64,000 nucleotides of DNA from positions 4,049,304 to 4,113,303 of the forward strand of contig KB906767.1 in assembly GCA_000381625.1 (NCBI GenBank). The letters are read 5' to 3'. The position numbers and the translations under genes are program-made. This DNA is from Bryobacterales bacterium KBS 96. Its GTDB lineage: Bacteria > Acidobacteriota > Terriglobia > Bryobacterales > Bryobacteraceae. Below, in pieces: positions 5,986 through 36,629 of this stretch. The notes beneath the pieces were generated by a model. The model was not told where the DNA came from and did no database searches. It worked only from the letters and a program-made list of their open reading frames with translations. The stretch's first letter is position 1. Each line of letters starts with the position of its first letter.

Positions 5986-7374
5986 ATGCGTAGCCAGTCG
6001 AGTTCCGGTCGAACCGGCGCTTTCAAATTCGCGAGCCGTACGGTGGCGGCGGCATGCGTTGTAGGTACGGCGCTTTTCTTCGGCCACCTGAACCTGCAAT
6101 CCAAATCGAAAACTCAGGCGAATAAGCCCCATATCGTGTTATCGCCGGATTTGCCGACGCAAGTGAAATTCGGTTCCGGTTCATCCCTTGGCGATCTGCA
6201 ACAAGATTTCGATATCTTCTCATGGGATTCCTTTATCGCCGCAAACTGGCCGCCCGGTCCGAATGGCGAGGGCGATCCTTCGAAGAAGCCCGGCAAGAAC
6301 GGCGATAACCCGACTATATGGGAAAGCTGGATCGATACCCGCAGCGTATTGTTGCCGGACGGCGAGGTTCCGTCCTGGGGCAGTTCGCCAGCAGTGCCGG
6401 GAGTGTGCCGCGCCGACTATAAGCCCGGCATGAAGATCCTGCGCCAGATCGGGAAGACGCCCAATCTGCTGACGGCGCAGATTCAGCCGTTCGAGACCGG
6501 GCCACTGATCGATCAGGAGCACCAGTACGCGCGGTTCGAGATTCACGTGAACCGCAGTATGTTCGATTTCATTAAGGCGCATCAGCTTTATTCCGCGGCG
6601 GGACAACAGAAATTCTCCGGGGACGTGTCGTTTCCGTGCAGTACAGCGAACCAGCTTGGAGCCGTGATGGTGAAGGCGTCCTGGAAGATTTTGAGCGCGA
6701 GCGACAATCCGGCGCGGTTTCATACCGCCGAGGTTCTGATTTACACTCCGCCATCGACCGATCCGCCGATCGAAGAAAGTTGCGTCTCGAAGAAAGTGGG
6801 GCTGGTCGGACTGCATATCGCCCACAAAGTAAACCAGGCGCCGCAATGGATCTGGTCGACTTTCGAGCAGGTGGACAACGCGCCGGACGAGGCCGCTGTG
6901 AAAAGCGGGAAACTCGCATCGCATTACAACTTTTACAAGCCGAATTGCACGGATTGCCTGCCGGTCGACACGGCTCCTCCGCGACCCTGGAATCCGAACT
7001 TGCCGGGTCAGAAGCCGAGCCAGGTGGTGCGCCAGGACGTTCTTCCTTCGTTTGCGGTGGCGAGCGCCCAATCGAATAACCGCATCGCACAGCATATGCT
7101 GGCAAAAATCAGCAAGAAGTCCGTTTGGCAATATTATGAGCTGATCAGCACGCAGTGGCCGACGAAGCCGGGTTCGGTGGCAACGTGTACGGCGGATCCG
7201 GTCGCACGCTTCGGAAATCCGGCCCCACAGTTCCTCGCCAATTCGAGTCTTGAAACCTATGTTCAGGGCACAGTGCCCAACGTTTCTTCAAGCTGCATTT
7301 CGTGCCATGCCAATGCCGCGATGACCACCGGCAAAGCTTCGGATTTCACCTACGTTCTGCAGAGCGCAAAGTGA
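5986..7374 (+). CDS. Exported monohaem cytochrome-like protein (cassette protein 1)
   Basis: First gene of a six-gene operon. A basic N-terminus is followed by one hydrophobic segment (TVAAACVVGTALFFGHL), so it is exported or membrane-anchored. I prefer ATG 5986, with GGAGG about 11 nt upstream, over GTG 5956. The single haem motif CISCH lies about 30 residues from the C-terminus. The core contains GLVGLHIAHK and PQWIWSTFEQVDN, which recur almost unchanged in the fifth gene of the operon (10599-12053), so the two are paralogues. I recognise no catalytic domain; the family is only known to me as uncharacterised cytochrome-c-like proteins. Inference: electron acceptor or scaffold for the flavoprotein encoded two genes downstream. 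Confidence 0.75.
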   Translation: MRSQSSSGRTGAFKFASRTVAAACVVGTALFFGHLNLQSKSKTQANKPHIVLSPDLPTQVKFGSGSSLGDLQQDFDIFSWDSFIAANWPPGPNGEGDPSKKPGKNGDNPTIWESWIDTRSVLLPDGEVPSWGSSPAVPGVCRADYKPGMKILRQIGKTPNLLTAQIQPFETGPLIDQEHQYARFEIHVNRSMFDFIKAHQLYSAAGQQKFSGDVSFPCSTANQLGAVMVKASWKILSASDNPARFHTAEVLIYTPPSTDPPIEESCVSKKVGLVGLHIAHKVNQAPQWIWSTFEQVDNAPDEAAVKSGKLASHYNFYKPNCTDCLPVDTAPPRPWNPNLPGQKPSQVVRQDVLPSFAVASAQSNNRIAQHMLAKISKKSVWQYYELISTQWPTKPGSVATCTADPVARFGNPAPQFLANSSLETYVQGTVPNVSSSCISCHANAAMTTGKASDFTYVLQSAK

Positions 7375-7383
7375 GGACCCTAA

Positions 7384-7878
7384 ATGAATAGCCCAGTTGT
7401 TCAACTCGCCACGCCGGCGAGCGCTACTCGCGTGACAAATTTCGCCGCGATGTCGGCGGCGCTCACCGGCTTCTCGCTTGAGACGATCAGCCCGGATCTC
7501 GATGTGACGGATCTCAAAAGCGCCTACCTCCAGACGGCGGACCAAAACGGCCAGGCGCAAGAGGTTGACCGTCTGATCGCCCAATTTCTCGGCCTGAAGG
7601 GCAAAACGAGCCAGGAGATCGCGGACGCGCTGCTGGACGCAAGCACGCAGCCAGCGGATTTGATCGCCGCAGCGCGCCACATTCTCGAAATGTGGTATCT
7701 CGGCACGTGGAATGGAGCCGTCGTGTCGGCGAACGCCTATATCGGCGGCCTTGCCTGGCAGGCGGCCCAGGCCCATGCGATGGGTTATAGCGAGTGGGAA
7801 TTCGGCTATTGGGCTCAGGACCCCCCGCCGCTAGCAGATTTCGGCGTTCAAGTGAGCAATGGAGCAAAACGTGGATAA
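7384..7878 (+). CDS. Small subunit of FAD-dependent sugar/alcohol dehydrogenase (FAD-SLDH type)
   Basis: A 164-residue helical protein resembling the small subunit that accompanies membrane-bound FAD sorbitol and glucose dehydrogenases: FAAMSAALTGFSL at the start, a central VDRLIAQFLGLKG, and the family-like ending with ILEMWYLGTWNG, SANAYIGGLAWQAAQAHAMG and YSEWEFGYWAQDPPP. In characterised systems this subunit carries a Tat signal that exports the catalytic subunit with it. Here no twin-arginine signal is visible, which is odd. GAGGA precedes the ATG, 9 bp after the previous stop, and the 3' end overlaps the next gene by 20 bp, so translation is likely coupled. Confidence 0.8.
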   Translation: MNSPVVQLATPASATRVTNFAAMSAALTGFSLETISPDLDVTDLKSAYLQTADQNGQAQEVDRLIAQFLGLKGKTSQEIADALLDASTQPADLIAAARHILEMWYLGTWNGAVVSANAYIGGLAWQAAQAHAMGYSEWEFGYWAQDPPPLADFGVQVSNGAKRG

Positions 7879-9742
7879 CGGGCAATTCGATGTCGTCGTG
7901 ATTGGCTCAGGGTTGAGCGGCTCCATCGTCGCCGCCGAGTTGGGCAGCGCCGGTAAAAAAGTATTGGTGATTGAAGCCGGTCCGGCTGTGCCGGATAACC
8001 GCGGCGAGTACATGCAGAACTTTTACATGAACTCGTTGAAGGCGCCGGAGTCGGCGTACCCGCCGCTTACGCTCGATCCAGCGAACGAAGCCACCCCGCG
8101 CGCGACCATCGGCGGACTGATCAATTCGCAGAATCCGGCCAAGAGCTACTTAATCCAACCGCCGCCGAGCAAGATCCCGAACGCCAGCAGCCTTCCGTTC
8201 AGCAGCACCTACGAGCGTGTCGGCGGCGGCACGATGTGGCACTGGCTGGGGACGTCTCTGCGCCTGGTGCCGAACGATCTGCAGATGTATACGAAATACG
8301 GCGTATTCTCGAGCGACGCCGACTGGCCCATCGGCTACGACACGCTTTCGGGTTTGTACGAGAAAGCCGAAAGCGAGATCGGCGTATCGGCGAGCGTAGC
8401 CGAACAAGCGCCGCTGGGACCGTCAATCGGATTGAAGTACCGCCCTGGTTATCAATATCCGATGAATCCCATCCCGATGACCCTGGTAGACGAGGCAGTG
8501 AGCAAGGGATCGGAAGGCGTCGTCGTCGATTCCAAGCCGGTATTTGTCACGCCTACCCCGGCTGGCCGGAATTCACAACCCTATCAGAGCCGCCGAGTTT
8601 GTGCGGGCAACACCAATTGCATTCCCATCTGCCCGATTCAGGCCAAGTACGATCCGTCCGTTACGCTGGCGCGAGCGTTGAATACCGGCAACGTGACGGT
8701 TAGTTGGCAATCGGTCGCAACGAAGCTATTGACGGATGCGAGCGGCAAGATTTCGGGCGTTCAATACGTTACGTGGGACAAAGAATTGAACCCCACGAAA
8801 GGCGCCACTAAGACAGCACAAGGAGCGATGTATGTGCTGGCGGCCCACGCCATCGAGAACGCGAAGCTGCTGCTGCTTTCGAAATCGCCACAATTCCCGA
8901 ACGGCGTCGCCAATTTCAGCGATCAGGTCGGCCGCAACCTGATGGACCACGTGCTCTATCTCTCGTGGGCGCTGACGCCCGAAGGCCAGCCCGTGTATCC
9001 GTATCGAGGTCCGCTCGCGACAGCGGGTATCGAGAGCCTGCGCGATGGAGCGTTCCGCAGCCAGCGTGCGGCTTATCGGATCGAGATCGGCAACGAAGGC
9101 TGGAATTTTGCAATTGGCGATCCCAATACCACGGTTCTCGACTTCATCTACGGAAAAAATGAGTCGCGAACGAATCCGCCTGTTGCGCCGGGGCAGCCTG
9201 CCGGCAAGCCGGGTCCCGCTCTCGGCGGCCCCGCGCTTGCGATGGCTATCAACGACCGGCTCACACGGCAATTCCGGCTCGGCTGTCTCATCGAGCAGGC
9301 TCCCCAGGCTTCGAATTGCGTCACGCTCGATGAGAAGTATACGGACGGCCTCGGCCTGCCGCGGCCCAAAATCAACTACGGATTCGATGCGTACACGCTG
9401 GCCGGATTCAAGTCGGCGCGCCAGACTTGCAGCGCGGTCTATAAGGCGATGGGCGCTACTGAATTCACCGATTACTCGGGCAGAAAGGGGTCGCCGTCAT
9501 ACTTCGAAATTGACGGGGAAGCATACGCGTTCTTCGGGGCCGGCCACATCATAGGCACCCACCGCATGGGCAACAACAAAAAGCATTCGGTTGTCGACGC
9601 AAATCAAAAATCGCATGATCATGCGAATCTCTGGATCATGGGCAGCGGCAGTTTTCCGACCGAAGCCACCCCCAATCCCAGTCTCACCATCGCCGCTCTT
9701 GCGTTTGCAACCGCGGCGGATTTGAAATCTGCATTGAAATAA
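7859..9742 (+). CDS. GMC-family FAD dehydrogenase, catalytic subunit
   Basis: A 627-residue GMC oxidoreductase. The FAD-binding Rossmann motif VVVIGSGLSGSIVAAELG lies near residues 12-30, and the C-terminal active-site region has GAGHIIGTHRMG and later NPSLTIAALAFATAADL. Cys248, Cys254 and Cys258 (CAGNTNCIPICP) reproduce the C-x5-C-x3-C spacing of the 3Fe-4S site known from bacterial FAD-glucose dehydrogenase, so the enzyme probably passes electrons through a cluster to a cytochrome. The protein starts directly with the FAD fold and has no signal peptide. It overlaps the small-subunit gene by 20 bp. Likely substrate is a sugar, polyol or related alcohol; which one cannot be told. Confidence 0.88.
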   Translation: MEQNVDNGQFDVVVIGSGLSGSIVAAELGSAGKKVLVIEAGPAVPDNRGEYMQNFYMNSLKAPESAYPPLTLDPANEATPRATIGGLINSQNPAKSYLIQPPPSKIPNASSLPFSSTYERVGGGTMWHWLGTSLRLVPNDLQMYTKYGVFSSDADWPIGYDTLSGLYEKAESEIGVSASVAEQAPLGPSIGLKYRPGYQYPMNPIPMTLVDEAVSKGSEGVVVDSKPVFVTPTPAGRNSQPYQSRRVCAGNTNCIPICPIQAKYDPSVTLARALNTGNVTVSWQSVATKLLTDASGKISGVQYVTWDKELNPTKGATKTAQGAMYVLAAHAIENAKLLLLSKSPQFPNGVANFSDQVGRNLMDHVLYLSWALTPEGQPVYPYRGPLATAGIESLRDGAFRSQRAAYRIEIGNEGWNFAIGDPNTTVLDFIYGKNESRTNPPVAPGQPAGKPGPALGGPALAMAINDRLTRQFRLGCLIEQAPQASNCVTLDEKYTDGLGLPRPKINYGFDAYTLAGFKSARQTCSAVYKAMGATEFTDYSGRKGSPSYFEIDGEAYAFFGAGHIIGTHRMGNNKKHSVVDANQKSHDHANLWIMGSGSFPTEATPNPSLTIAALAFATAADLKSALK

Positions 9743-9756
9743 CTTCAGGAGCAAAG

Positions 9757-10581
9757 GTGCCCCAACCACTTCCTTCCATTCCGGCGGGCTTCGGCCTGCC
9801 ATTCTATTACTCGTCGCTGACTAACTTCGAAGTCTTGTATCTGGTGGATGCCGCGGCTCCGCGCAAATTTTTACAAGGCACGCATCTGGAATTAGCCACA
9901 TTCAACGGCAAGGCTTGCGTCTCGTTTAACCACCAGCTCTACACGGGACAATTTCCAACGGGCGCGGCCATCACCCAGGAAATTGAGCTGAACATCCTCG
10001 CAGTGCCAAAGGAGCTATGGCCTCTCGTCGCCGAGGTGAGTTTCGATCAATTTGTCAGCGGCGATGAACAGACCAAGTTCATGGGGAACCATCGCGTGTG
10101 GGTTCCGTGTGATGCCGATATTGCGATCAAAGCGGGTAAGGAGCTGTTCGGAGAGCCTAAATTCAAAACCAGCTTCACGATTTCAATTCCGTCGTTAAAC
10201 GATCCGAGCGTCACAACCTGGTCGGTCGTCTGCAACGATCCGGCTTCGCCCGAAACGGAAGAGTCATACATCTTTTCATGCAAGGCGGATCTTACCGGAC
10301 TTCCGGCAACGGCATCAAATCCGTCGCCTGTCACCGAATATGGGAAGCATCAGGACCGCCTGATCGGCTGCCGGTGGAACATCCTCGGAACGTTCGATAC
10401 TTACAAGCTCGATGCGAAATCGGCCCAACGCGTGAAGCTGTCGTTCGGCACAAGCTCGCATAAGATGCGTGCCGACATGCAGGAGTTAATCGGCTCGACG
10501 CCGGCGGCCTATGCACGCAGCTATCAATCCACCCCCGCGGCGATTCAGAGCAGAGCCTATTTTCCGGTGACGAAGGGATGA
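9757..10581 (+). CDS. Acetoacetate-decarboxylase-like protein
   Basis: A 274-residue cytoplasmic-looking protein starting at GTG with AGGAGC upstream. The region AGKELFGEPKFKTSF matches the acetoacetate decarboxylase family segment that holds the Schiff-base lysine; Lys135 would be that residue. In true decarboxylases a second lysine follows it, whereas here it is Phe136. Other family features are the upstream YLVDAAAPRKFL and a beta-rich C-terminal half. This family also includes members that use the lysine for aldol or dehydration chemistry rather than decarboxylation. It sits between the dehydrogenase and the second cytochrome-like gene; it could act on the keto product of the dehydrogenase. 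Function is inferred only. Confidence 0.65.
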   Translation: MPQPLPSIPAGFGLPFYYSSLTNFEVLYLVDAAAPRKFLQGTHLELATFNGKACVSFNHQLYTGQFPTGAAITQEIELNILAVPKELWPLVAEVSFDQFVSGDEQTKFMGNHRVWVPCDADIAIKAGKELFGEPKFKTSFTISIPSLNDPSVTTWSVVCNDPASPETEESYIFSCKADLTGLPATASNPSPVTEYGKHQDRLIGCRWNILGTFDTYKLDAKSAQRVKLSFGTSSHKMRADMQELIGSTPAAYARSYQSTPAAIQSRAYFPVTKG

Positions 10582-10598
10582 AAGGCCAGGGGAGACGA

Positions 10599-12053
10599 AT
10601 GAATTCACGTTTGCGCAACATCAGCTTGTTGTTGGCAGGCTCGGTGGCACTGGCAGGATCTGCGTTCGCGCAGAATACTCCCGACTACGGTCCGTTGAAG
10701 CCCGTGCTAAAGGGAGACATGCCGGGCGTTGTGCCGGCATTTCCGTTCGCGGCCGCGCCCGTCGATACCCGGCCGATGTTCGACTATTTTATGTGGCAGA
10801 ACTTCATTGCCGCGATGTGGCCCGCACAGCCTGGCAGCCATGGCCAGCCGCTCCAGCCGGATAATCCGAACATCTTCAGAAACCCTCCCGCGAACACGCA
10901 GCCTGTCTGGCTCGGTTGGAAAACCGCTTACGAACTGTTTCCGCAGAATGGCAGCGCTCCTCCGGCATGGGATCAGTCGGGCAACACGAATGTCTGCCGC
11001 GGAGTATCCGCAAGCGATACGCGGCCGGTGTTGATGATGGTTAGCAAATTCGGCACAGTTGCCGAGGAATTGAACCAGGCGTTTGCCGGACCGCTGCCGG
11101 ATCAGACCGGGTTGTTTACTCGCTATGAAGTGCGCGTGGACCGGCCTTATTACGATTATGTCCGGGCCCGCAAACTTTACAACCGGTCGAACTGGCCGAC
11201 AGGCAAGCAGCCGCCAATTGTCCTTCCGGCGAGTTCCGACTCGGCCCTTGGCTCGATCGAGGTGAAGGGGGCCTGGCGCGATCTGTCGAAAGTGCCGGAG
11301 CGTTTTCAGAAGCGATTCTACACGGAGCTTGCATTGGTCGCGGTGCCGGATACCTGCTCCATCGACCCCGGCACGCAACGCGTAGTTTGCGATTGCAGGT
11401 CGATCAAGGCGGGCCTTGTAGGCTTCCATATCGCTCATAAAACACAGCAATTCCCGCAATGGGTTTGGAGCACATTCGAACAGGTCGACAATTTGGGCGA
11501 AGACCCCACCACTCCGAAAGACATGCAGCCTTCCTATTACGATCCCGACTACTACAAGAAGTACGGCGGCCCACGCAGCAATCCGCCGGACCATCCGGGA
11601 GCGAGCCGTGTTCCAAAAGCGGATGATTTCGACCACACGCCGGTAAACGTCGTGCGCCTGTCTCAGATTCCGAGCACGCCGGCGGGTAACTCCACCATGG
11701 ATTTCAATCAACGCTATCGGGCTTTGATGAAGGGAACCGTATGGGAGAACTACGTTCTGATCGGAACGCAGTGGTCCACGCTGCCGTCCTGGCCGCCGCA
11801 AACGCCTAAGTCGGATTTCGGTTGTGAAGACGGCACGCTGCCGACCGCTGGCGGTCTGGCGTTTCCCGCCTGTGGGGTCTCGAACATCACTATGGAAACG
11901 TATCACCAGCTCGACAGTTGCCAGAACTGCCACCAAGGCGCGCAGCGATCGGGCGCCGATTTCAGTTGGATTCTCGCGAACCGCGCCTACACACCGGGTG
12001 GGACCACCAACAGCATTATTAACGGGCTGAAGACTCTTCCCGTGAAAAAGTGA
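10599..12053 (+). CDS. Exported monohaem cytochrome-like protein (cassette protein 5)
   Basis: I place the start at ATG 10599, preceded by GGGGAGA; the in-frame ATG at 10578 overlaps the previous stop but lacks this site. A clean signal peptide follows (ISLLLAGSVALAGSAFA, cleavage after AFA). The protein is a paralogue of the first gene of the operon: DYFMWQNFIAAMWP compares with DIFSWDSFIAANWP, and GLVGFHIAHK and PQWVWSTFEQVDN are shared. One haem motif, CQNCH, lies near the C-terminus (about residue 440). A second Cys-rich stretch (VVCDCRS) lies in mid-protein. No known enzymatic domain. Periplasmic electron transfer or a structural role beside the flavoprotein is an inference. Confidence 0.75.
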   Translation: MNSRLRNISLLLAGSVALAGSAFAQNTPDYGPLKPVLKGDMPGVVPAFPFAAAPVDTRPMFDYFMWQNFIAAMWPAQPGSHGQPLQPDNPNIFRNPPANTQPVWLGWKTAYELFPQNGSAPPAWDQSGNTNVCRGVSASDTRPVLMMVSKFGTVAEELNQAFAGPLPDQTGLFTRYEVRVDRPYYDYVRARKLYNRSNWPTGKQPPIVLPASSDSALGSIEVKGAWRDLSKVPERFQKRFYTELALVAVPDTCSIDPGTQRVVCDCRSIKAGLVGFHIAHKTQQFPQWVWSTFEQVDNLGEDPTTPKDMQPSYYDPDYYKKYGGPRSNPPDHPGASRVPKADDFDHTPVNVVRLSQIPSTPAGNSTMDFNQRYRALMKGTVWENYVLIGTQWSTLPSWPPQTPKSDFGCEDGTLPTAGGLAFPACGVSNITMETYHQLDSCQNCHQGAQRSGADFSWILANRAYTPGGTTNSIINGLKTLPVKK

Positions 12054-12066
12054 GGACGAAACGACG

Positions 12067-13440
12067 ATGACCTCGAAGTTATTATTAACTGCGTTGGCGG
12101 CGAGTCTGTTGTTGCCCGTTGTCCAAGCTCAGGATGCGGCAGCTCAGGACACTGCGGCGCTTGCATATCGAAATGCGGTTGAAACGCCTCCTCCGGGGTG
12201 GACCGGACCTGTATTTCGTTTGAGTCATGATTATCCAACGCAAGCTCCCGCCGCCTGTGGCGTGAAGGACTGTCCGTGGCTCGCCACAAATCCGAGCATG
12301 TTCAACCAGGCGCCGGGAAGCAGCGTTCCTGTATGGGACGCACAATGGTCGGCCTACATGAAGAAGATCTTCGACTACATAAAAGAGGGTCAGGACCCGA
12401 TGCTCTCGAATCAGAAAGGCTGGAACGTCGAGGTCGGCGGCAATACGCGCTGGTATCACGTGCCTTGGATGTCATACGATCCCACTCGCGGCCGCGAATT
12501 TGTGCATGGGCTCACCAACGAGCGCACCGCGACGATCAGCGACTTCCATAAGCCGCTGGAGCATCACTTCGGGCTCAACTCGCTGCAGGCCTCCGTAAAT
12601 CCCAACGCGAAGTTCGAGACGTGGGCTTTCGGCGTCTATAACGATTACGGCGCTTATTCGATCGGTAAGAGCTGGGATAAAAACGGTCTGCCGCAAGTTG
12701 CGTCCTACGATGGAGTGCGTACGCCCGCGGGCCTGCCTTTCCCTACCGGCACAGTTGTCGCAAAACTCCTGTTCACAACAGCAACGGAAAAAGATGCTCC
12801 GTACCTGAAAGGATCTCCGGCCTGGCAGGCGGATCGTCATGTGATGAACGGCCAGAACCCTACCTGCGAGCGCAAGGTGCAGATTGTTCACCTAGTGCAG
12901 ATGGACATCGCGGTGGTGGACCCGAATTCTCCCGGCCGCTGGATATTCGGAACTTACATTTGGGACGGCAATCGTCCGGGCAAAACGGCATGGGATCATC
13001 TGGTTCCGGTCGGTCTGCAATGGGGCGCCGATCCGTGGACATTCCCGGCCGTTCCGCGCGCGGAAAGCATTCCGGTCAGGCAGAGCGTGTTAAATCCGCG
13101 GCGACCGAACGCGCAAGCCGGATGCCAGGGTCGCCTCGCCGGGCCGGTGGACAACAAGCAGGCATCCTGCGTTTCCTGCCACGGAGGCGCGTTTGCTTCC
13201 ACTTCGAGCGCGTTGTCCGTGCCGACAGGTACGCCGCCCATCTTTGGCTTTCCCGGCCTTTGTACGCAGTATTCGCTCGAAAATGCGCAGTATTTCAACA
13301 ACGTGCAGTTTCCGCAGGGTTACACCGGCGGCCAGTATCCGGACGTGATGAACCTGGATACGTCGTTGCAGTTGCAGGTGTCGTTCTTCCAATACGCGCA
13401 GTACAAACATACGGGAAAGCCGGCAGCCTGCACTCAGTAA
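12067..13440 (+). CDS. Exported monohaem cytochrome-like protein (cassette protein 6)
   Basis: Last gene of the operon, 13 bp after the previous stop with GAGGA upstream. The N-terminus is a signal peptide (LLLTALAASLLLPVVQAQ). The 457-residue protein has one haem motif, CVSCH, around residue 360, again toward the C-terminus as in the two other haem proteins of the operon, but its body is more diverged: it has GRWIFGTYIWDGNRPGKTAW and WDHLVPVGLQWG instead of the GLVGFHIAHK block. Cysteine pairs elsewhere (CGVKDC, CERK) may form disulfides. No recognised enzymatic family. It probably belongs to the same complex or pathway as its neighbours. Confidence 0.72.
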   Translation: MTSKLLLTALAASLLLPVVQAQDAAAQDTAALAYRNAVETPPPGWTGPVFRLSHDYPTQAPAACGVKDCPWLATNPSMFNQAPGSSVPVWDAQWSAYMKKIFDYIKEGQDPMLSNQKGWNVEVGGNTRWYHVPWMSYDPTRGREFVHGLTNERTATISDFHKPLEHHFGLNSLQASVNPNAKFETWAFGVYNDYGAYSIGKSWDKNGLPQVASYDGVRTPAGLPFPTGTVVAKLLFTTATEKDAPYLKGSPAWQADRHVMNGQNPTCERKVQIVHLVQMDIAVVDPNSPGRWIFGTYIWDGNRPGKTAWDHLVPVGLQWGADPWTFPAVPRAESIPVRQSVLNPRRPNAQAGCQGRLAGPVDNKQASCVSCHGGAFASTSSALSVPTGTPPIFGFPGLCTQYSLENAQYFNNVQFPQGYTGGQYPDVMNLDTSLQLQVSFFQYAQYKHTGKPAACTQ

Positions 13441-28310: not shown

Positions 28311-28796
28311 GTGCGTCTCACTGTTTACACGGACTACACGATCCGCCTTTTGATTCACCTTGCGGTGCAGGGAGACCGTGCCGCCACTATCCAAGAGGTC
28401 GCCCAACGCTATAACATCTCACGTAACCATCTCATGAAAGTGGCAAGCCGAGCCGTTCAGGCTGGCTACATTGAAAGCACGCGAGGCCGGGGCGGCGGGC
28501 TGCGGCTGGCTCGCCCCGCGTCACAGATTCGCCTGGGCGAGGTGCTCCGAGTCACCGAAGACGATTGGGACCTGGTGGAATGTTTCGACCCCACCAAGGA
28601 TCGGTGCACCATAACGAAGGCCTGTGGCCTGCGTCCTATACTGGCCGAGGCCCTGGACGCCTATTTTGCCGTGCTGGACCGCTACACATTGGCGGACGCC
28701 GTCAGCCAGCGAAAGCCACTGGTTCAACTGCTCGGGCTTAATGGCACGGGTCGGAACTCCTCACTTTTGGCCGCAACGGCAAGAGCGCAAAGATAA
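28311..28796 (+). CDS. nsrR: NsrR-type Rrf2-family nitric-oxide-sensing regulator
   Basis: A 161-residue winged-helix regulator starting at GTG. The N-terminus (RLTVYTDYTIRLLIHLAVQ) and ISRNHLMKVASRAVQAGYIE followed by RGRGGGLRLARPA closely follow E. coli NsrR. Cys91, Cys99 and Cys105 lie in the loop DLVECFDPTKDRCTITKAC, matching the Fe-S ligands that react with NO. The ending LDRYTLADAV is also NsrR-like. NsrR represses NO-detoxification and nitrite/NO reductase genes until NO damages its cluster. The downstream genes include a copper nitrite reductase, which supports this assignment over iron-responsive or IscR-type Rrf2 proteins. Confidence 0.88.
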   Translation: MRLTVYTDYTIRLLIHLAVQGDRAATIQEVAQRYNISRNHLMKVASRAVQAGYIESTRGRGGGLRLARPASQIRLGEVLRVTEDDWDLVECFDPTKDRCTITKACGLRPILAEALDAYFAVLDRYTLADAVSQRKPLVQLLGLNGTGRNSSLLAATARAQR

Positions 28797-28995
28797 GGAA
28801 ATCCGCAAAACGAATCCATTATGAACTGCCAGGATGCGATGCGGCCGCCTAAAAATGTTTCGCTGCATTGCGCGGCGCCGTCAATGCCGTAGCGGACTCC
28901 GAAGTTTTCATCGCGTGAATTGTTCAGCTCATTTCTTAACAATTCAGCGCCTTATATCGACCATTTGCTGATTACCTTTGGACGGCCTTCGCCTT

Positions 28996-29020
28996 AAACA
29001 TGCATTCTAGGTGCATGTTT
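28996..29020. promoter_or_regulatory. Palindrome with NsrR-like geometry before the copper oxidase operon
   Basis: AAACATGCA (28996-29004) and TGCATGTTT (29012-29020) form perfect 9-bp arms around a 7-nt centre. Read as 11-1-11 half-sites it resembles the NsrR consensus of enterobacteria, whose half-site is AAGATGCATTT. It lies about 200 bp downstream of the nsrR gene, and the candidate start codons of the oxidase gene (29000 and 29015) fall inside it. Confidence 0.6.
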
Positions 29021-30097
29021 CAAGGCAGAGATAAAGCCGCTCAAGCGAGAGAGGTTGTTCCGCTCAAACCCCGCTCCCGATCTCGCGGGTTGGTGCTGTT
29101 CCTCCTCGCAGCCGGCTTACCGATGATTGGCCGGGCCGAGAAGCGGGTATTCGACATGACGATCGAGGATACGAAAATAACACTCGTCGAACAGCAAGGA
29201 TTTCACACTTTCGCATTTGACGGACAGGTCCCCGGGCCGTTGATCCACGTAAAAGAAGGAGACGAGGTTACTGTCAATGTCAATAACTTAACAACCTTGC
29301 CACACACCATCCACTGGCACGGAATACTCCAGCGGGGTACATGGAAAAGCGACGGCGTCCCGGATGTAACTCAGGCTGCAATCCAGCCAGGGGATACATA
29401 CACCTACAAATTCGTTGCCGAGCCATCCGGCACCCTCTGGTATCACTGCCATGTCAATGTCAACGAGCATGTCGCCATGCGAGGCATGTGGGGCCCTCTC
29501 ATCATAGATCCCAAAACCCCGCTACCTATCGAAAAAACGGTAACTCGGGATTACATCATGATGTTGAGCACCTGGGTCTCAAAGTGGGCGTTCAAGCCGG
29601 GGTATGGAGGCGTTCCCGGAGACGAACCGGACTATTTCACAATGAACGGAAAAGCCTATCCGGACACGCAGCCTCTTCGCGTTAACCCGGGAGATGTAAT
29701 ACGCATTCGGCTGATCGGAGCCGGGGATGCGTTCCATTCCATCCACATACACGGCCACATATTCAAAATCGTATTTAAAGACGGGCGGCCCTTGGCAAAT
29801 CCCATCTTAGCCGACACGGTTGTCATTGGACCCGGCGAGAGAAAAGACCTATTTATAACATGCGATAACCCAGGGCGTTGGATGGTTCACGACCACGTCG
29901 ATGCCCATACCGTTAATGGTGAAAAACCGATGGGCGGCATCATGACCGTAATTGAATACAACAACGTCGAGCGCACCGACAGCTTTTACATCTGGCGGAA
30001 TAAGCAGTTCATTCCAGATTTCTTTTACGAAGAATCGATGAAAAAACCCTACGGAAAACATGACGCGCCGGCATTCAAAGGTAAGGCAATCCAATAG
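29015..30097 (+). CDS. Two-domain multicopper oxidase
   Basis: A 360-residue exported enzyme. Starts at 29000 or 29015 are possible; 29015 is preferred because the basic residues before the hydrophobic segment GLVLFLLAAGLPMIGRA suffice for a signal peptide. Domain 1 has HTIHWHG and YHCHVNVNEHVAMRGM, holding type 1 (Cys145, His152, Met) and type 2/3 ligands; domain 2 has HSIHIHGH and VHDHVDAH but no Cys, so the only type 1 copper is in domain 1. All four His-x-His groups of a trinuclear site are present, unlike NirK. Substrate unknown. It heads the cytochrome-NirK-Cus gene run, with 11 bp to the next gene. Confidence 0.87.
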   Translation: MFQGRDKAAQAREVVPLKPRSRSRGLVLFLLAAGLPMIGRAEKRVFDMTIEDTKITLVEQQGFHTFAFDGQVPGPLIHVKEGDEVTVNVNNLTTLPHTIHWHGILQRGTWKSDGVPDVTQAAIQPGDTYTYKFVAEPSGTLWYHCHVNVNEHVAMRGMWGPLIIDPKTPLPIEKTVTRDYIMMLSTWVSKWAFKPGYGGVPGDEPDYFTMNGKAYPDTQPLRVNPGDVIRIRLIGAGDAFHSIHIHGHIFKIVFKDGRPLANPILADTVVIGPGERKDLFITCDNPGRWMVHDHVDAHTVNGEKPMGGIMTVIEYNNVERTDSFYIWRNKQFIPDFFYEESMKKPYGKHDAPAFKGKAIQ

Positions 30098-30108
30098 CGA
30101 GCAGGTTA

Positions 30109-30804
30109 ATGACTACGAAATACATATTATACGTATGTGCCGGCCTGATGCTGGGGCAAGGGCTGGCCAAGCCAGCGGATGTAGCCGCGGCGATGCAGAC
30201 CCAATGTGCCCAATGCCACGCGCTGAAGGCTCCAGCGCCGGCGGAGCTTACTATCGATCGGCTTTGGCAACGCAAGGGACCCGATCTCTACTACGCGGGC
30301 AGCAAATATAACGAGGCCTGGCTAGTGAAGTGGTTGCAAGATCCGAAACGCATTCGGCCTGCCGGCGAATTTTATTTCAAACACGTAAAGACAGGGGCCA
30401 AGGAAGATGTCGTCGATGAATCGACTCTCACTCCCCACGTCAAGCTCTCAAAGGATGATGCGACCGCGTACGCAGCCGCTCTCATGCAGCTAAAGGGGGC
30501 GCCTGACTTGGTTGAAAAGGGTTCCTATAAGCAGCAACCGGGAAGGGCCGCCATGGCTGCCATGTTCTTTAACAAGCTGCGCGGCTGCTCCGCCTGTCAT
30601 CAAAGCGCGTCGGGCGCCGGCGGACTTTCCGGCCCGGAGCTCTACACCGGAGGCGAGCGATTGCAGCCGGATTACATCCACGACTACATTAAAGATCCGC
30701 AAAAGTTCGATCCGCATATTTGGATGCCAAAGCTTGGGTTAAATGAGGCCGATCTCCAGAGGCTCACGGGCTATATCGTGGGGCTCAGTGCGGCAAAACG
30801 ATAG
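30109..30804 (+). CDS. Dihaem c-type cytochrome
   Basis: A 231-residue periplasmic protein with a short signal peptide (YILYVCAGLMLGQGLA) and two haem-binding motifs, CAQCH near residue 30 and CSACH near residue 162. Met ligands are plausible in WMPKLGLNEADLQRLTGYI at the end, a typical class I cytochrome c tail. It would carry electrons in the periplasm, likely toward the oxidase or NirK encoded on either side. It begins 11 bp after the oxidase stop and ends 8 bp before the next cytochrome gene. Confidence 0.88.
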   Translation: MTTKYILYVCAGLMLGQGLAKPADVAAAMQTQCAQCHALKAPAPAELTIDRLWQRKGPDLYYAGSKYNEAWLVKWLQDPKRIRPAGEFYFKHVKTGAKEDVVDESTLTPHVKLSKDDATAYAAALMQLKGAPDLVEKGSYKQQPGRAAMAAMFFNKLRGCSACHQSASGAGGLSGPELYTGGERLQPDYIHDYIKDPQKFDPHIWMPKLGLNEADLQRLTGYIVGLSAAKR

Positions 30805-30812
30805 GAATAGAC

Positions 30813-31208
30813 ATGTTCAAGAAAGTACGAATCCCGCTTAAGTTATCGCTAGCTGCGTTCTTCTTAGCCGGTACGACCTATGCATTTCAAAATGAGGCGA
30901 CGGTCAAGCTCTATAACACCTATTGCGTACAGTGCCACGGCCTGAATCGAAACGGCAAAGGCGTCAATACGCATGATATAGCGGTTCAGCCCCGTGATCA
31001 TACGGACCCCAAGGGCATGGGCGATATGCCCGACGACGAGCTGACCAAAGCCATTACAGAGGGCGGATTGTCGGTAAATAAGTCGGTCATCATGCCGAGA
31101 TGGGGGCTGACGTTGAGCACCGATCAGGTTAAAGATCTTGTGAGCTATCTTCGTGTGGTCTGTAAATGCGGACCCAAGAAAGAAGGAAGTACTAATGTTG
31201 GTAACTAG
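30813..31208 (+). CDS. Monohaem class I cytochrome c
   Basis: A 131-residue periplasmic protein. The signal peptide is IPLKLSLAAFFLAGTTYAF, and the haem motif CVQCHGLNRNGKGVNTHDIA is followed by a Met ligand candidate in SVIMPRWGLTLS and the closing helix QVKDLVSYLRVV. This is a small soluble class I cytochrome, a plausible direct electron donor to the NirK protein encoded next. The nirK start lies inside its 3' end (14-bp overlap), so the two are probably translationally coupled. Confidence 0.9.
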   Translation: MFKKVRIPLKLSLAAFFLAGTTYAFQNEATVKLYNTYCVQCHGLNRNGKGVNTHDIAVQPRDHTDPKGMGDMPDDELTKAITEGGLSVNKSVIMPRWGLTLSTDQVKDLVSYLRVVCKCGPKKEGSTNVGN

Positions 31209-32139
31209 AGCACGGTTTCGGGTCGCGACCACCGCTTATATGTCGGCTTTGTTTCTCATTTCGGCTGGTGTGATGCAGGCAAAAACTGTCACCGTTACGT
31301 TGCATGCCAAGGAAGTCGATTTGCCAATCGACAATAAGGGAACCATGTATAAAGCATGGACCTATGACGGGGAAATGCCTGGCCCATTGGTGCGCGCCAC
31401 GGAAGGAGATACGGTCGATTTTACGCTGGTCAACGACAGTAATAATAAGAACTCGCACGCGATCGACTTTCACGCCGCTCAACTCGACGTTGTCAAGGAT
31501 TTTGGCCCCGTTAAGCCGGGTGAGTCGAAGCACTTCATATTCACCGCGAATTACCCAGGGATATTTTATTATCACTGCGGCGCGGACCCCATGATTCAGC
31601 ATATCGCCCGAGGGATGTTTGGAGCGATTATCGTCGATCCGAAAGATCCAAACGCGATGCCTAAAGCGGATCGTGAATATGTCCTGATTCAATCCGAGTT
31701 GTATCCTAATCCCGACAATAAGAACGACATGATGCAGGACAAATGGTCTAACGTCATGTTCAACGGTGGCATTTTTAAATACGACCCGGTGCATGATCCC
31801 AATGCAACGCGCTGGCTGCAGGCTAAGCCCGGTGAGCGCGTCCGGATTTACTTTGTCAACGCCGGTCCGAATGAATTTTCCTCTTTCCATCCAATTGCCG
31901 GCATTTGGGACCGCGTATATCAAAGCGGGAACCCAAAGAACGTTCACGTAGGGATGCAGAGCCTCGTAGTTGGGCCAGGAGATGCGGACACTTTCGATAT
32001 TATCTCGCCGGTGGAAGGCGCTAACGCGATTGTGACGCACTCCCTGAGAGGCGCCCTTTCCGGCGCGATTGCGATTATTATGTACAGCAAAGACGCCGAT
32101 CCCAAGATGGGCCATGGCGATGAGATTCTAGTCCGGTAA
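31195..32139 (+). CDS. nirK: Copper-containing nitrite reductase, NirK type
   Basis: A 314-residue exported copper enzyme that reduces nitrite to nitric oxide in the periplasm. From ATG 31195 (AAGGAAG upstream), the type 1 ligands are His88, Cys128, His136 and Met141 and the type 2 ligands His93, His127 and His282; the catalytic Asp91 and His232 are also present (SHAIDFHAA, FYYHCGADPMIQHIARGM, SSFHPIAG, VTHSLRGALSGA). This distinguishes it from the laccase-like protein upstream. It is placed behind two cytochromes and an NsrR-type regulator. No NO reductase gene lies in the window, so the fate of the NO is not seen. Confidence 0.88.
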   Translation: MLVTRARFRVATTAYMSALFLISAGVMQAKTVTVTLHAKEVDLPIDNKGTMYKAWTYDGEMPGPLVRATEGDTVDFTLVNDSNNKNSHAIDFHAAQLDVVKDFGPVKPGESKHFIFTANYPGIFYYHCGADPMIQHIARGMFGAIIVDPKDPNAMPKADREYVLIQSELYPNPDNKNDMMQDKWSNVMFNGGIFKYDPVHDPNATRWLQAKPGERVRIYFVNAGPNEFSSFHPIAGIWDRVYQSGNPKNVHVGMQSLVVGPGDADTFDIISPVEGANAIVTHSLRGALSGAIAIIMYSKDADPKMGHGDEILVR

Positions 32140-32146
32140 TCGCTAG

Positions 32147-33463
32147 ATGGGCCTCTGGCAGCATCTGTTCCATTCTTACCGTCGGAGGCTCAACCTGCTC
32201 CGTATATCGATAGCAGGAGCGATTGTTGTGCTGGTTTGCGGTGTGGCGTTCGCGGCTCTGAGGTTCGAACGAACCATGAACCAAACGGCCGGTCGGAGAT
32301 CGGCGCCGGGGTTACCATTATCTGCCGGGGTGTGGACCTGTCCCATGCACTCCTTTGTACGAGAGCAGCATTCTGGGCATTGCCCGATTTGCGGAATGGC
32401 GCTCGTGTCTCGTTCTCCGGAAACTCCAGCGGCTTCGGCGGCAAGGAGTTCAGTTGACGATTCGCCGCTGATCCGCCACTTGGGCCTCCGCCTTGCTGCG
32501 GTAACCACGGCTACTCTGACTCGAAATATTCACACGTATGGAATTGTCACTCCGGCCACCGACAGTGCATTTAACCTGAGTCCGAAAACGGAGGGTTGGG
32601 TCAAGCGCCTGTTTGTATCGTCGGTCGGGCAGCGAGTGCGCAAGGACCAGCCACTCTACGAGTTTTACTCCAGCGAACTGATTGCAAAGCAGCGAGAGTA
32701 CATCGAGTTGCTCAACCGAAAGGACCAAATCGCCGAGAGTGCGAGTGAAATCTCGAATCAAACCGCCCAAGTGTTAGCCAGCTTGGCGCGGGAGCGGATT
32801 AGAGTTCGCGAAAAGCTTCTTCAGGCGGACATGAGTGAATCGGCTCTTCAATTTATTGACGAAAAGCATCGCACGGTAGACATCGTGACCATATTGGCGC
32901 CGCAAGACGGGGTAGTGACGCAAATTGGAGCTCGTGCGGGATCTTATGTCACGCCGATGATCGACGTTTTGTCATTGGCGAGCGCCAGCGCAGTTTGGGT
33001 TGACGTGTCTCTTTACCCGGACCAATTGGCTTGGGTCCGCGATGGCGATTGGACAACGGTGACTTACCAGCATCACGCGGTTCGATGCCGCATCAGCTTA
33101 CGGAGTGCGGTATCGGACGCTGGGACACGCGCGCTGCACGGCCGGATTGTGTTGCCCGCCGACCCGGCATCGCTTTACTCCGGTGAGTTTAGCGACGTCG
33201 TGATTCACACGCAGGAGCATCAAGCTCTCGTCGTTCCTACGTCGGCGATTGTGCGTCGTGGCTCGAAACAGTTCGTCATGCAGTTCGAAGCAGAGCAGTC
33301 TTTCCGCATGACGCCGGTGAAGCCGGGAGTGGCAGATTCGGAGCTAACTGAGATTGTCTCCGGGCTGACGGAAGCCGATAAAGTCGCCGTTAACGGACAA
33401 TTCCTTTTGGATGCCGACGCCCCGCTGCCTACGAATGGCCAGGATCCATCACCCAATGAATGA
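32147..33463 (+). CDS. cusB: Copper RND efflux adaptor, CusB type, with heavy-metal-binding domain
   Basis: A 438-residue periplasmic adaptor. One N-terminal membrane anchor (AIVVLVCGVAFAALRF) is followed by a heavy-metal-binding domain WTCPMHSFVREQHSGHCPIC with two Cys-Pro-x motifs, then the barrel-sandwich and coiled-coil regions (LYEFYSSELIAKQREYIELL). The C-terminal part contains the membrane-proximal domain (PVKPGVADSELTEIVSGLTE). CusB links the inner-membrane pump to an outer-membrane channel and receives copper from CusF. It starts 7 bp after nirK and overlaps cusA by 8 bp, so copper export is co-expressed with the two copper oxidases. Confidence 0.88.
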   Translation: MGLWQHLFHSYRRRLNLLRISIAGAIVVLVCGVAFAALRFERTMNQTAGRRSAPGLPLSAGVWTCPMHSFVREQHSGHCPICGMALVSRSPETPAASAARSSVDDSPLIRHLGLRLAAVTTATLTRNIHTYGIVTPATDSAFNLSPKTEGWVKRLFVSSVGQRVRKDQPLYEFYSSELIAKQREYIELLNRKDQIAESASEISNQTAQVLASLARERIRVREKLLQADMSESALQFIDEKHRTVDIVTILAPQDGVVTQIGARAGSYVTPMIDVLSLASASAVWVDVSLYPDQLAWVRDGDWTTVTYQHHAVRCRISLRSAVSDAGTRALHGRIVLPADPASLYSGEFSDVVIHTQEHQALVVPTSAIVRRGSKQFVMQFEAEQSFRMTPVKPGVADSELTEIVSGLTEADKVAVNGQFLLDADAPLPTNGQDPSPNE

Positions 33464-36400
33464 TCCTGCAATGAACCATCGATTGAGGCTGACAGAGCGC
33501 GTTATCGCCTGGTCATTGAACAATCGCTTCCTTGTTCTGGCCGGCGCCATCTGCATTCTGGCATTTGGCCTGTACTCCCTCGATCGCCTATCCCTGGACG
33601 CAATCCCCGATGTTTCCGACGTACAAGTCATCATCAGGACTTCGTACGCAGGGCAATCTCCGCAAACAGTCGAGGATCAGGTCACATACCCTCTAACGTC
33701 GGTGCTTCTCTCCGTGCCACGGTCGACGGCGGTGCGCGGATTCTCGATGTTTGGCGATTCCTATATATACGTAATATTCGAAGATGGAACGGATCCCTAT
33801 TGGGCTCGCGCACGCGTGCTTGAATATTTGAATCAAGCGACGTCGCGCCTCCCTCCCGGCTTATCGCCGGTGCTCGGGCCGGATGCATCCGGCGTGGGAT
33901 GGATTTACGAATATGCGCTGGTGGATCGCCATCATCGCTACGATCCGGATGAAATCAGAGCCGTTCAGGATTTCTACCTGAAGTACGAACTACAGAGCGT
34001 TGCGGGAGTCGCCGAGGTAGCAAGCGTTGGCGGGATGGTGCGCCAATATCAGGTCGAAGTGGATCCGAATCGGCTGGCGGCGTATAACGTCAGCCTCGAT
34101 CGTGTCGGCCAGGCGATTCGCGACGCCAACATGGACGGCGGCGGGTCCGCGATTTCAATAGGCGGATCGGAATTTATGATCCGTTCGAGAGGCCTTCTCC
34201 GAAGCCTTACAGATTTCGAGAATATCGACGTCGGCATGGATGCTCGCGCAGTTCCAATCCGGCTCACGGACGTCGCGCGGTTGCAACTAGGACCTGAAAT
34301 GCGGCGTGGCATCGCTGAACTGAACGGCGATGGTGAAGTCACCGGCGGAATAGTCGTCATGCGCCAGGGACAAAATGCGTTGAGCACGATTCAGGCGGTG
34401 AAGTCTCGAATACAAGAGCTTAAGCGCGGGCTGCCCAGCGGTCTCGAAATGGTGCCGGTGTACGACCGATCGGAGTTGATTAACAATGCCGTTCACAGCC
34501 TGAGCGGAAAGCTTATCGAAGAGTCCATCGCCGTCACATTTGTCTGCATGATTTTTCTGCTGCATTTGCGATCGTCTGCGGTTGTCTTCATCGTACTGCC
34601 GGTTGCCATTCTGCTGGCGCTGACGGTCATGCGACTACAAGGAGTAACCGCCAACATCATGTCGCTTGGGGGGATCGCGATTGCCGTGGGCGCCTTGGTG
34701 GATGCCGCGATCGTCATGATCGAGAACATGCACAAACACCTGGAAAAGGAAGGTTCGAACCCGGATTACGTGCAAATTGCGCGACGAAGCGCTCTGGAGG
34801 TAGGGCCAGCGCTGTTTTTCTCGCTTCTGATCATAACGGTTTCGTTTTTCCCGATATTTGGTTTGAATGGGCAGGAGGGCAAGCTATTCACGCCCTTGGC
34901 GCTTACTAAGTCATATGCGATGGCCGCCGGCGCGCTTCTGGCGATTACGCTTGCTCCTGTCCTGATGACATTCCTGATCCGTGGGCGGATCTTGCCCGAA
35001 TCCAGAAATCCGATCAATCGTTTTTTGCAAGCCCTGTATCGCCCCGTTCTTGCATTTGCGCTGAATCATCGCGCTGTGACGGTGGGGATCGCCGGTTGCA
35101 TTCTTCTCTCTTCTCTCTGGCCGCTACTGAAAACCGGTTCCGAGTTTATGCCGCCGCTCTATGAGGGCGACATTCTCTACATGCCCACCGCTCGGGCCGA
35201 TATTCCGGCGTCCGAAGCCAGCAAACTTTTGCAATACGCCGATCAACTCATTCGAGGCTTGCCGGAAGTAAATCGGGTTTTTGGGAAGGCGGGCCGCGCC
35301 GATTCCGCCACCGATCCAGCGCCCCTCTCCATGTTCGAGACAACCATCTCTCTGAAGCCGCGAGAAGCCTGGCCCCCTGGAGAAACTGTCGAAGATTTCA
35401 TCAAAAAGCTGGATCGCACGGTGCGCGTGCCAGGTCTTACGAATTCGTGGGGATATCCCATTCGAACCCGCATCGATATGTTGTCCACCGGCGTCAGAAG
35501 CGCAGTGGCTGTTCGCGTCACTGGCCAGGATCTGGCTGGCATCAACCAGATGGCTCAACAAATTGCCGCGGCGCTCAAAGGAGTTCCGGGCACGCGGTCT
35601 GCTTTCGCGGACCGGGGCGACGGCGGGCGGTATTTGGATATCACGACGGACCGGCTGAAGGCGGCTCAGTTTGGCCTCAATGTCGCCGACGTGCAACGGG
35701 TGGTTCAGAGCGCCATTGGCGGCGGTATGGTGAGCACGCTTCTGAACGGCAGGGAGACGTTCCCGATCAGCGTACGTTATCCCAGGGAATACCGCGATTC
35801 TCTTCAAGCTGTTGGCGATTGCCGTCTGGCAACGCCTTCGGGCGGTCAAGTCTCCTTGCGCGATGTGGCGGAAATCGCCTTCAAAGACGGCCCGATGGAG
35901 ATTCGAAGTGAGAATGGCCGTCTTGCGACGTTTGTGTATGCGGATGTCGAAGCTCGAGACCTTGGCGGCTACGTTATCGCCGCGAAGGAAGCGGTCTCCC
36001 GCATGGTTCCCGCAAAGCCGGGCTACGACACTGTTTGGACGGGCCAGTATGAGAATCTCGAACATGCAAGGCAGCATCTGGCATGGGCAATGCCCTTGAC
36101 GCTAGGCGTCGTTGCGCTATTACTGTATTTTCAATCGGGCCAGATTCAGAAAGTTCTGCTGATTCTCCTTTGCCTTCCCTTCTCAATAGCGGGGGGACTG
36201 TGGGTCACCTATTTACTCGGCTACAACTTCTCTGTTGCAGTCGCTGTAGGCTTCATTGCGTTGGCCGGCGTAAGCGCCGAATTTGGTGTCGTCATGTTGA
36301 TCTACCTCGATCTCGGCATCGATGAGGCAACGAATTTCAGGCTGCTATTGACGCCCGCGGCCATTAGGGAAGGAATCGTTAAGGGCGCGCTTCTTCGTCT

Positions 36401-36629
36401 CCGGCCGAAAAGTATGACGGTGGCCGTGATTCTAGCCGGATTGCTGCCGATGTTTTTTAGCCAAGGCGCCGGCGTCGATGTCATGCGCCGCATCGCCGCT
36501 CCTCTTGTCGGCGGCATGATCACCGCGCCGCTGCTTTCGCTCGTCGTGATCCCGGTCCTTTATGATTGGCTGCAATGCCGTCGCACTCCTGCTTCCACGC
36601 TGGAGTTAGCTTCGGAGGAAACGGCCTAA
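33456..36629 (+). CDS. cusA: Heavy-metal RND efflux pump, CusA/CzcA type
   Basis: About 1057 residues, an inner-membrane proton-driven pump with twelve predicted helices. The start is ATG 33456, overlapping cusB, or ATG 33471; the longer frame from 33411 reads into cusB. Family features: SLDAIPDVSDVQVIIRT at the N-terminus, AIAVGALVDAAIVMIENMHK in the helix-4 region that holds the proton-relay Asp, and a second half beginning SGQIQKVLLILLCLPFSIAG. The Cu/Ag branch is inferred from the Cus-type adaptor with a metal-binding domain. No outer-membrane factor (CusC) gene follows; the next gene is a glycosidase. Confidence 0.92.
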   Translation: MNDPAMNHRLRLTERVIAWSLNNRFLVLAGAICILAFGLYSLDRLSLDAIPDVSDVQVIIRTSYAGQSPQTVEDQVTYPLTSVLLSVPRSTAVRGFSMFGDSYIYVIFEDGTDPYWARARVLEYLNQATSRLPPGLSPVLGPDASGVGWIYEYALVDRHHRYDPDEIRAVQDFYLKYELQSVAGVAEVASVGGMVRQYQVEVDPNRLAAYNVSLDRVGQAIRDANMDGGGSAISIGGSEFMIRSRGLLRSLTDFENIDVGMDARAVPIRLTDVARLQLGPEMRRGIAELNGDGEVTGGIVVMRQGQNALSTIQAVKSRIQELKRGLPSGLEMVPVYDRSELINNAVHSLSGKLIEESIAVTFVCMIFLLHLRSSAVVFIVLPVAILLALTVMRLQGVTANIMSLGGIAIAVGALVDAAIVMIENMHKHLEKEGSNPDYVQIARRSALEVGPALFFSLLIITVSFFPIFGLNGQEGKLFTPLALTKSYAMAAGALLAITLAPVLMTFLIRGRILPESRNPINRFLQALYRPVLAFALNHRAVTVGIAGCILLSSLWPLLKTGSEFMPPLYEGDILYMPTARADIPASEASKLLQYADQLIRGLPEVNRVFGKAGRADSATDPAPLSMFETTISLKPREAWPPGETVEDFIKKLDRTVRVPGLTNSWGYPIRTRIDMLSTGVRSAVAVRVTGQDLAGINQMAQQIAAALKGVPGTRSAFADRGDGGRYLDITTDRLKAAQFGLNVADVQRVVQSAIGGGMVSTLLNGRETFPISVRYPREYRDSLQAVGDCRLATPSGGQVSLRDVAEIAFKDGPMEIRSENGRLATFVYADVEARDLGGYVIAAKEAVSRMVPAKPGYDTVWTGQYENLEHARQHLAWAMPLTLGVVALLLYFQSGQIQKVLLILLCLPFSIAGGLWVTYLLGYNFSVAVAVGFIALAGVSAEFGVVMLIYLDLGIDEATNFRLLLTPAAIREGIVKGALLRLRPKSMTVAVILAGLLPMFFSQGAGVDVMRRIAAPLVGGMITAPLLSLVVIPVLYDWLQCRRTPASTLELASEETA

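Follow-up and report, generated by a model that had tools for sequence, protein, structure and literature searches.

The six-gene operon at positions 5986-13440 of the window (the whole stretch of 64,000 nucleotides analysed, from Bryobacterales bacterium KBS 96, a soil bacterium) encodes a flavoenzyme together with three exported single-haem proteins, which are placed firmly, at the level of sequence profiles, as giant (~460 amino acids) and diverged members of the cytochrome P460/c'-beta superfamily. We propose that the operon specifies a two-compartment oxidative pathway whose flavoenzyme side is cytoplasmic and whose haem side is periplasmic, a reading to which we give about an even chance. 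In the cytoplasm, a gamma-GMC enzyme (FAD/[3Fe-4S], of the FAD-glucose dehydrogenase [FAD-GDH] kind, its Tat signal lost) would oxidise a hydroxyl group of the substrate, and an acetoacetate decarboxylase (ADC)-like protein would process the keto product by means of a conserved Schiff-base-type lysine. In the periplasm, the three giant P460-superfamily c-haem proteins would act on a related substrate or on a small ligand, protein 3 with both P460 active-site positions retained (Lys and Asp) and proteins 1 and 2 with the lysine and an invariant histidine in place of the distal carboxylate. The superfamily relationship, the invariant columns, the gene linkage and the absence of signals on which this proposal draws were computed.

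Operon layout and the flavoenzyme subunits

All six open reading frames listed in the first-pass annotation were found where it had placed them, on the plus strand, to which all coordinates below refer. Their order is haem protein 1, gamma (FAD-SLDH-type), GMC flavoprotein, ADC-like protein, haem protein 2 and haem protein 3, and the successive gaps of 9, -20, 14, -4 and 13 bases indicate that the six genes are read as one operon. Scans for promoters and terminators returned nothing better than shuffled sequences did. Elsewhere in the window, at 28311-36629, an Rrf2-type regulator, two multicopper-oxidase-like proteins, two small cytochromes c and a CusB/AcrB-type efflux pair are encoded consecutively, by appearance a copper- or nitrite-related cluster.

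The GMC flavoprotein (alpha subunit, 627 aa, 7859-9742) matched FAD-glucose dehydrogenase (6a2u/8hdd) with an E value of 4e-80 and fructose dehydrogenase (7w2j) with 2e-61 in phmmer searches and is, judged by its sequence, the catalytic subunit of the FAD-GDH/FDH branch. The C248-x5-C254-x3-C258 motif reported for it was confirmed (8600-8632); the three cysteines, invariant in 18 relatives, are the predicted ligands of a predicted 3Fe-4S cluster. A small gamma gene (164 aa, 7384-7878) does precede it as claimed, although its assignment as FAD-SLDH-type rests on a weak Pfam match (E 7e-5, 23.6 bits, just below the cut-off of 24.2), and 6a2u_A was reached at E 0.33-0.41 with LDTFMTLSESLTG aligned. 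The inserted ADC-like gene (274 aa, 9757-10581) is likewise present, but its family match was again weak: neither the protein itself (E 0.017) nor a relative (E 0.006) matched the acetoacetate decarboxylase family of Pfam significantly, both falling below the cut-off. Its K135, invariant in five relatives, is a possible Schiff-base lysine.

Haem protein 1 (P0001, 462 aa, 5986-7374), haem protein 2 (P0005, 491 aa, 10578-12053) and haem protein 3 (P0006, 457 aa, 12067-13440) each carry exactly one CxxCH, near the C terminus: C437ISCH (a haem c motif by pattern, 7294-7308), C448QNCH and C368VSCH, respectively. The description of three exported proteins with a single C-terminal haem motif each, and of an operon devoid of a multihaem cytochrome c subunit, thus stood, the canonical control operons having mostly three CxxCH motifs in theirs. 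A canonical FAD-GDH complex was not found elsewhere either, the genome search returning no second FAD-SLDH gamma.

Relationship of the haem proteins to cytochrome P460

The haem proteins had been called an unrecognised family, which is correct as far as annotation goes, since no curated family names them and none of the three, searched singly, reached a Pfam or NCBIfam family above its cut-off. It no longer holds at the superfamily level. The P460 relationship emerged only when alignments were used, Pfam Cytochrome_P460 appearing below cut-off in 12 of 59 members of the protein-1/2 family and in 7 of 15 members of the protein-3 family. When 19 cytochrome P460 domains were compared by hhalign with the protein-1/2 family, the score was 37.2, against a mean of 14.0 for 100 column shuffles (sd 2.5, maximum 21.5); with the protein-3 family it was 39.7, against 14.5 (sd 2.7, maximum 24.5). 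Both families therefore exceed the shuffles by about 9 standard deviations, and three unrelated profiles scored 12.6-17.3, although the hhalign probabilities against P460 were just 47-65%. The two haem families are also related to each other by this profile comparison (70.3; shuffles 16.8, sd 2.8). Searched against all PDB sequences, the protein-1/2 profile gave only two distinct matches, both cytochrome P460 (E 0.02-0.03), collinear at the GAIMVK strand and at the CxxCH end. Class I cytochrome c was dropped as an affiliation on account of a single weak Cytochrome_CBB3 match (E 0.13) and of the near-C-terminal position of the CxxCH, which is followed by ~20-40 residues in proteins 1 and 2.

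In the PDB match, K230 of haem protein 1 (codon 6673-6675) falls over position 78 of 6hiu, and Lys78 is the haem-crosslink lysine of Methylococcus capsulatus P460 (PMC6427953). The crosslink-lysine column separates P460 from c'-beta, and the haem proteins carry lysine there: K230 and its equivalent in protein 2 are invariant in 59 sequences and K233 of protein 3 in 15, which makes these residues candidates for crosslinking the haem. The distal carboxylate of P460 is Glu96/Asp102 (residue roles in PMC11928373, Table 2). In that column the protein-1/2 family has an invariant histidine (H277, codon 6814-6816, in protein 1 and H284 in protein 2; n = 59), whereas the protein-3 family has an invariant aspartate (D280; n = 15), so that the carboxylate, a trait of NH2OH-oxidising P460 only, is kept in protein 3 and replaced in proteins 1 and 2. 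The register of the columns was checked by hand, and the P460-family control L109 reproduced exactly the 21-residue spacing from Phe61 to Gly82 of McCP-beta (PMC11928373). W288, W290, F293 and E294 of the protein-1/2 family were excluded as evidence because the collection scan described below used that pattern.

At the fold level, the result was split. The model of protein 3 had cytochrome P460 (2je2) as its top PDB match (E 0.022, probability 0.75), with many more P460/c'-beta entries ranking lower. The model of protein 1 was confident (pLDDT 83, pTM 0.85), but Foldseek found no solved relative for it in the PDB, P460 included (best E 0.39). P460-type haems are usually catalytic or ligand binding, and the haem proteins are thus probably catalytic or gas binding rather than the usual electron-carrying subunit, which makes it doubtful that they stand, as had been claimed, in place of the multihaem subunit.

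Export signals and gene neighbourhoods

The gamma protein of the window lacks a Tat signal peptide and starts at the mature N terminus, a few residues ahead of a conserved FxxLSxxLTG that marks the start of mature BcGDH gamma, the signal of which comprises 47 residues (PMC6719666). An alternative upstream start that would add a Tat signal was rejected, as stop codons lie just upstream. A Tat signal was found in 1 of 53 gamma relatives, compared to all six canonical gammas of the plasmid collection (one of the six escaped the pattern search but was obvious on inspection); four of these six canonical operons carry a 3-CxxCH cytochrome. The exception among the 53 is the Bradyrhizobium quebecense triad (L138), where the signal is clear, indicating that flavoenzyme and haem protein are both periplasmic there. 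The GMC and ADC-like proteins begin directly at their folds, without signals; their N termini were read by eye, the hydrophobicity score being useless for GMC because it flags the Rossmann core. By contrast, 87 of 107 haem proteins had Sec-type signals by a crude score. With signals absent from gamma, GMC and ADC-like protein and present on the haem proteins, split compartments are likely: gamma-GMC probably stays in the cytoplasm, and the haem proteins probably reach the periplasm. Such a split argues against simple replacement of the multihaem subunit, and so does the occurrence of gamma-GMC relatives without any haem protein of this kind.

In 84,980 species genomes scanned, the protein-1/2 family had at least 564 relatives, and the gene context was read in the best 80 of these loci and in plasmid records. 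Where co-occurrence of all six genes had been envisaged, two stable and separable modules appeared. Module one consists of haem protein 1, gamma and GMC in constant order and occurs in Pseudomonas, Lysobacter, Halomonas, Acidisphaera, Shimia, Azospirillum, Acidobacteriota and Verrucomicrobiota. Module two consists of haem proteins 2 and 3, adjoining or close to each other. It lies near a xanthine-dehydrogenase-type Mo enzyme in Methylobacterium, Albitalea and Rhizobacter and near a nucleoside hydrolase in Nitrosovibrio, Cellvibrio, Vibrio and Ferrimonas; in Alkalimonas it has neither. Gene orders that recur in several phyla place the association far beyond chance. In a tree of 85 proteins, module one formed a single clade (support 91) in which all 23 rows, from three phyla, adjoin gamma-GMC, while the protein-2/3 pair formed a separate clade of 11 rows (support 100), mostly without any GMC; the GMC label changed twice on the tree, compared to a shuffle mean of 21. 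The first-pass annotation had regarded wide occurrence of the haem proteins without the dehydrogenase genes as telling against its proposal, and this is what was found for proteins 2 and 3 but not for protein 1. Its GLVGxHIAHK and PQWxWSTFEQVDN motifs, shared by proteins 1 and 2, are real; a recent duplication of the two was rejected, since the tree places them in anciently separate clades.

The window joins both modules and the ADC-like gene, as does, probably, another acidobacterial contig (L027). A verrucomicrobial locus (L098) carries five of the genes consecutively, namely, those for protein 3, protein 1, gamma, GMC and ADC, and an ADC-like gene adjoins gamma-GMC in Verrucomicrobiota, Rhodobacterales, Aurantimonas and other Acidobacteriota. 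On plasmids of Rhizobium, Ruegeria, Methylobacterium and Pseudoalteromonas, a ferritin-like protein (PF12902 confirmed in that of Ruegeria, L143) replaces the haem protein beside gamma-GMC, showing that the haem protein can be dispensed with.

Several loci encountered in this survey deserve mention in their own right. The loci with ferritin-like proteins (L141-L146), which in Rhizobium and Pseudoalteromonas also hold GH15 and iolE-like genes, look like an undescribed cluster for sugar or cyclitol oxidation. Elsewhere (L023, L147, L070, L038-L055, L062, L065 and L024), genes of the P460-like family adjoin tyrosinases, a Rieske protein with BNR repeats, PQQ-type propellers with MntP, GH31 enzymes and a SagB/TOMM peptide cluster. 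On a Skermanella plasmid (L158:1861-5735), the genes for a canonical Tat-type gamma-GMC precede one for a multicopper oxidase, which takes the position of the cytochrome, and on a Cupriavidus plasmid (L140) the GMC gene is broken over several reading frames, possibly a pseudogene, next to an ADC-like protein 50% identical to ours.

Candidate roles and comparison with known systems

For the two-compartment pathway, we infer the compartments, the lysine-haem crosslink, the catalysis, the substrate and the view that the dehydrogenase does not use the haem proteins as its electron acceptor. Against this pathway stand the missing Foldseek match of protein 1, the modest hhalign probabilities, the unbroken association of protein 1 with gamma-GMC and the Tat signal of the B. 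quebecense gamma. The last two keep alive a model in which gamma-GMC is exported by an unseen route and the haem proteins, chiefly protein 1, replace the multihaem cytochrome in taking electrons from the 3Fe-4S cluster. The invariable haem-gamma-GMC order throughout the protein-1 clade and a genome in which no other FAD-SLDH gamma was found are also in its favor. We nonetheless consider this model unlikely, given that 52 of 53 gamma relatives and every GMC lack an export signal, that gamma-GMC relatives persist without the haem protein and that the measured potentials of P460-type haems are very low (-340 to -428 mV, with -205 mV for c'-beta; PMC11928373, Table 3), which would make them poor acceptors for a ketone-making flavoenzyme.

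Alternatively, gamma, GMC and ADC-like protein might form a self-sufficient unit in the cytoplasm, with oxygen, a quinone or a ferritin-like diiron protein as acceptor, and the haem proteins would be linked to it only to protect or to bind gas (NO, peroxide or hydroxylamine). The plasmids with the ferritin-like protein fit this view, as do two acidobacterial loci (L153 and L154) with the order ADC-gamma-GMC and no haem gene directly upstream, and NO binders are known in the P460 superfamily. However, the fact that protein 1 invariably adjoins gamma-GMC in three phyla suggests something beyond general protection, and we hold the idea to be improbable. We give still less credence to the haem proteins being a separate new fold that converged on P460-like motifs. 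The lack of a Foldseek match in the PDB for the protein-1 model and a size about three times that of P460 could be so explained, but not readily the collinear matches at the lysine strand, the next strand, the invariant Trp and the CxxCH, the shuffle controls or the agreement of independent sequence and structure searches on P460.

P460 haems, with their rare lysine crosslink, are known from a handful of small proteins, those of ammonia and methane oxidisers being the best studied. More tentatively than the two-compartment pathway, and with considerable doubt, we suggest that the relatives counted here form a widespread, unnamed giant P460-type branch, with a haem-crosslinking lysine and a distal histidine, that acts as dedicated exported partner of varied oxidoreductases, including GMC-gamma, PQQ-propeller proteins, Mo hydroxylases and tyrosinases. 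If so, P460-type haem chemistry would operate outside nitrogen metabolism, and across the membrane from a flavoenzyme without an export signal; if hundreds of larger soil-bacterial proteins share the P460 center beside sugar- or alcohol-type dehydrogenases, its chemistry and biology would be far wider than thought. Loss of the Tat signal from gamma, the 'hitchhiker' subunit, amounts to a clean natural experiment on the role of gamma beyond export. New partners for FAD-GDH-type enzymes are also of practical interest, since glucose sensors make use of these enzymes. No link between P460 and GMC dehydrogenases was found in the literature searched.

Compared to the acetoacetate decarboxylase family, the ADC-like protein shares the weak Pfam match and the conserved lysine in a GEPK-type motif but stays below the cut-off and has not conserved the neighboring second lysine, to which we presume a role in that family. 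With the FAD-glucose, fructose and sorbitol dehydrogenases (BcGDH gamma-alpha-beta), the operon shares a GMC alpha with a cysteine cluster for 3Fe-4S and, directly upstream of it, a small gamma gene whose product resembles FAD-SLDH weakly; it differs in the missing Tat signal of gamma, the absent multihaem beta and the added ADC-like and P460-like genes. With cytochrome P460/c'-beta (NeP460, McP460 and McCP-beta), the haem proteins share a C-terminal CxxCH after a putative beta-sheet core, an invariant Trp, a GxxxVK strand with the crosslink-lysine column and a next strand with the distal residue. They differ from these in size (~460 versus ~160 aa), in the distal histidine of proteins 1 and 2, in missing all curated cut-offs and in the location of their genes, which lie with dehydrogenases rather than with nitrogen metabolism.
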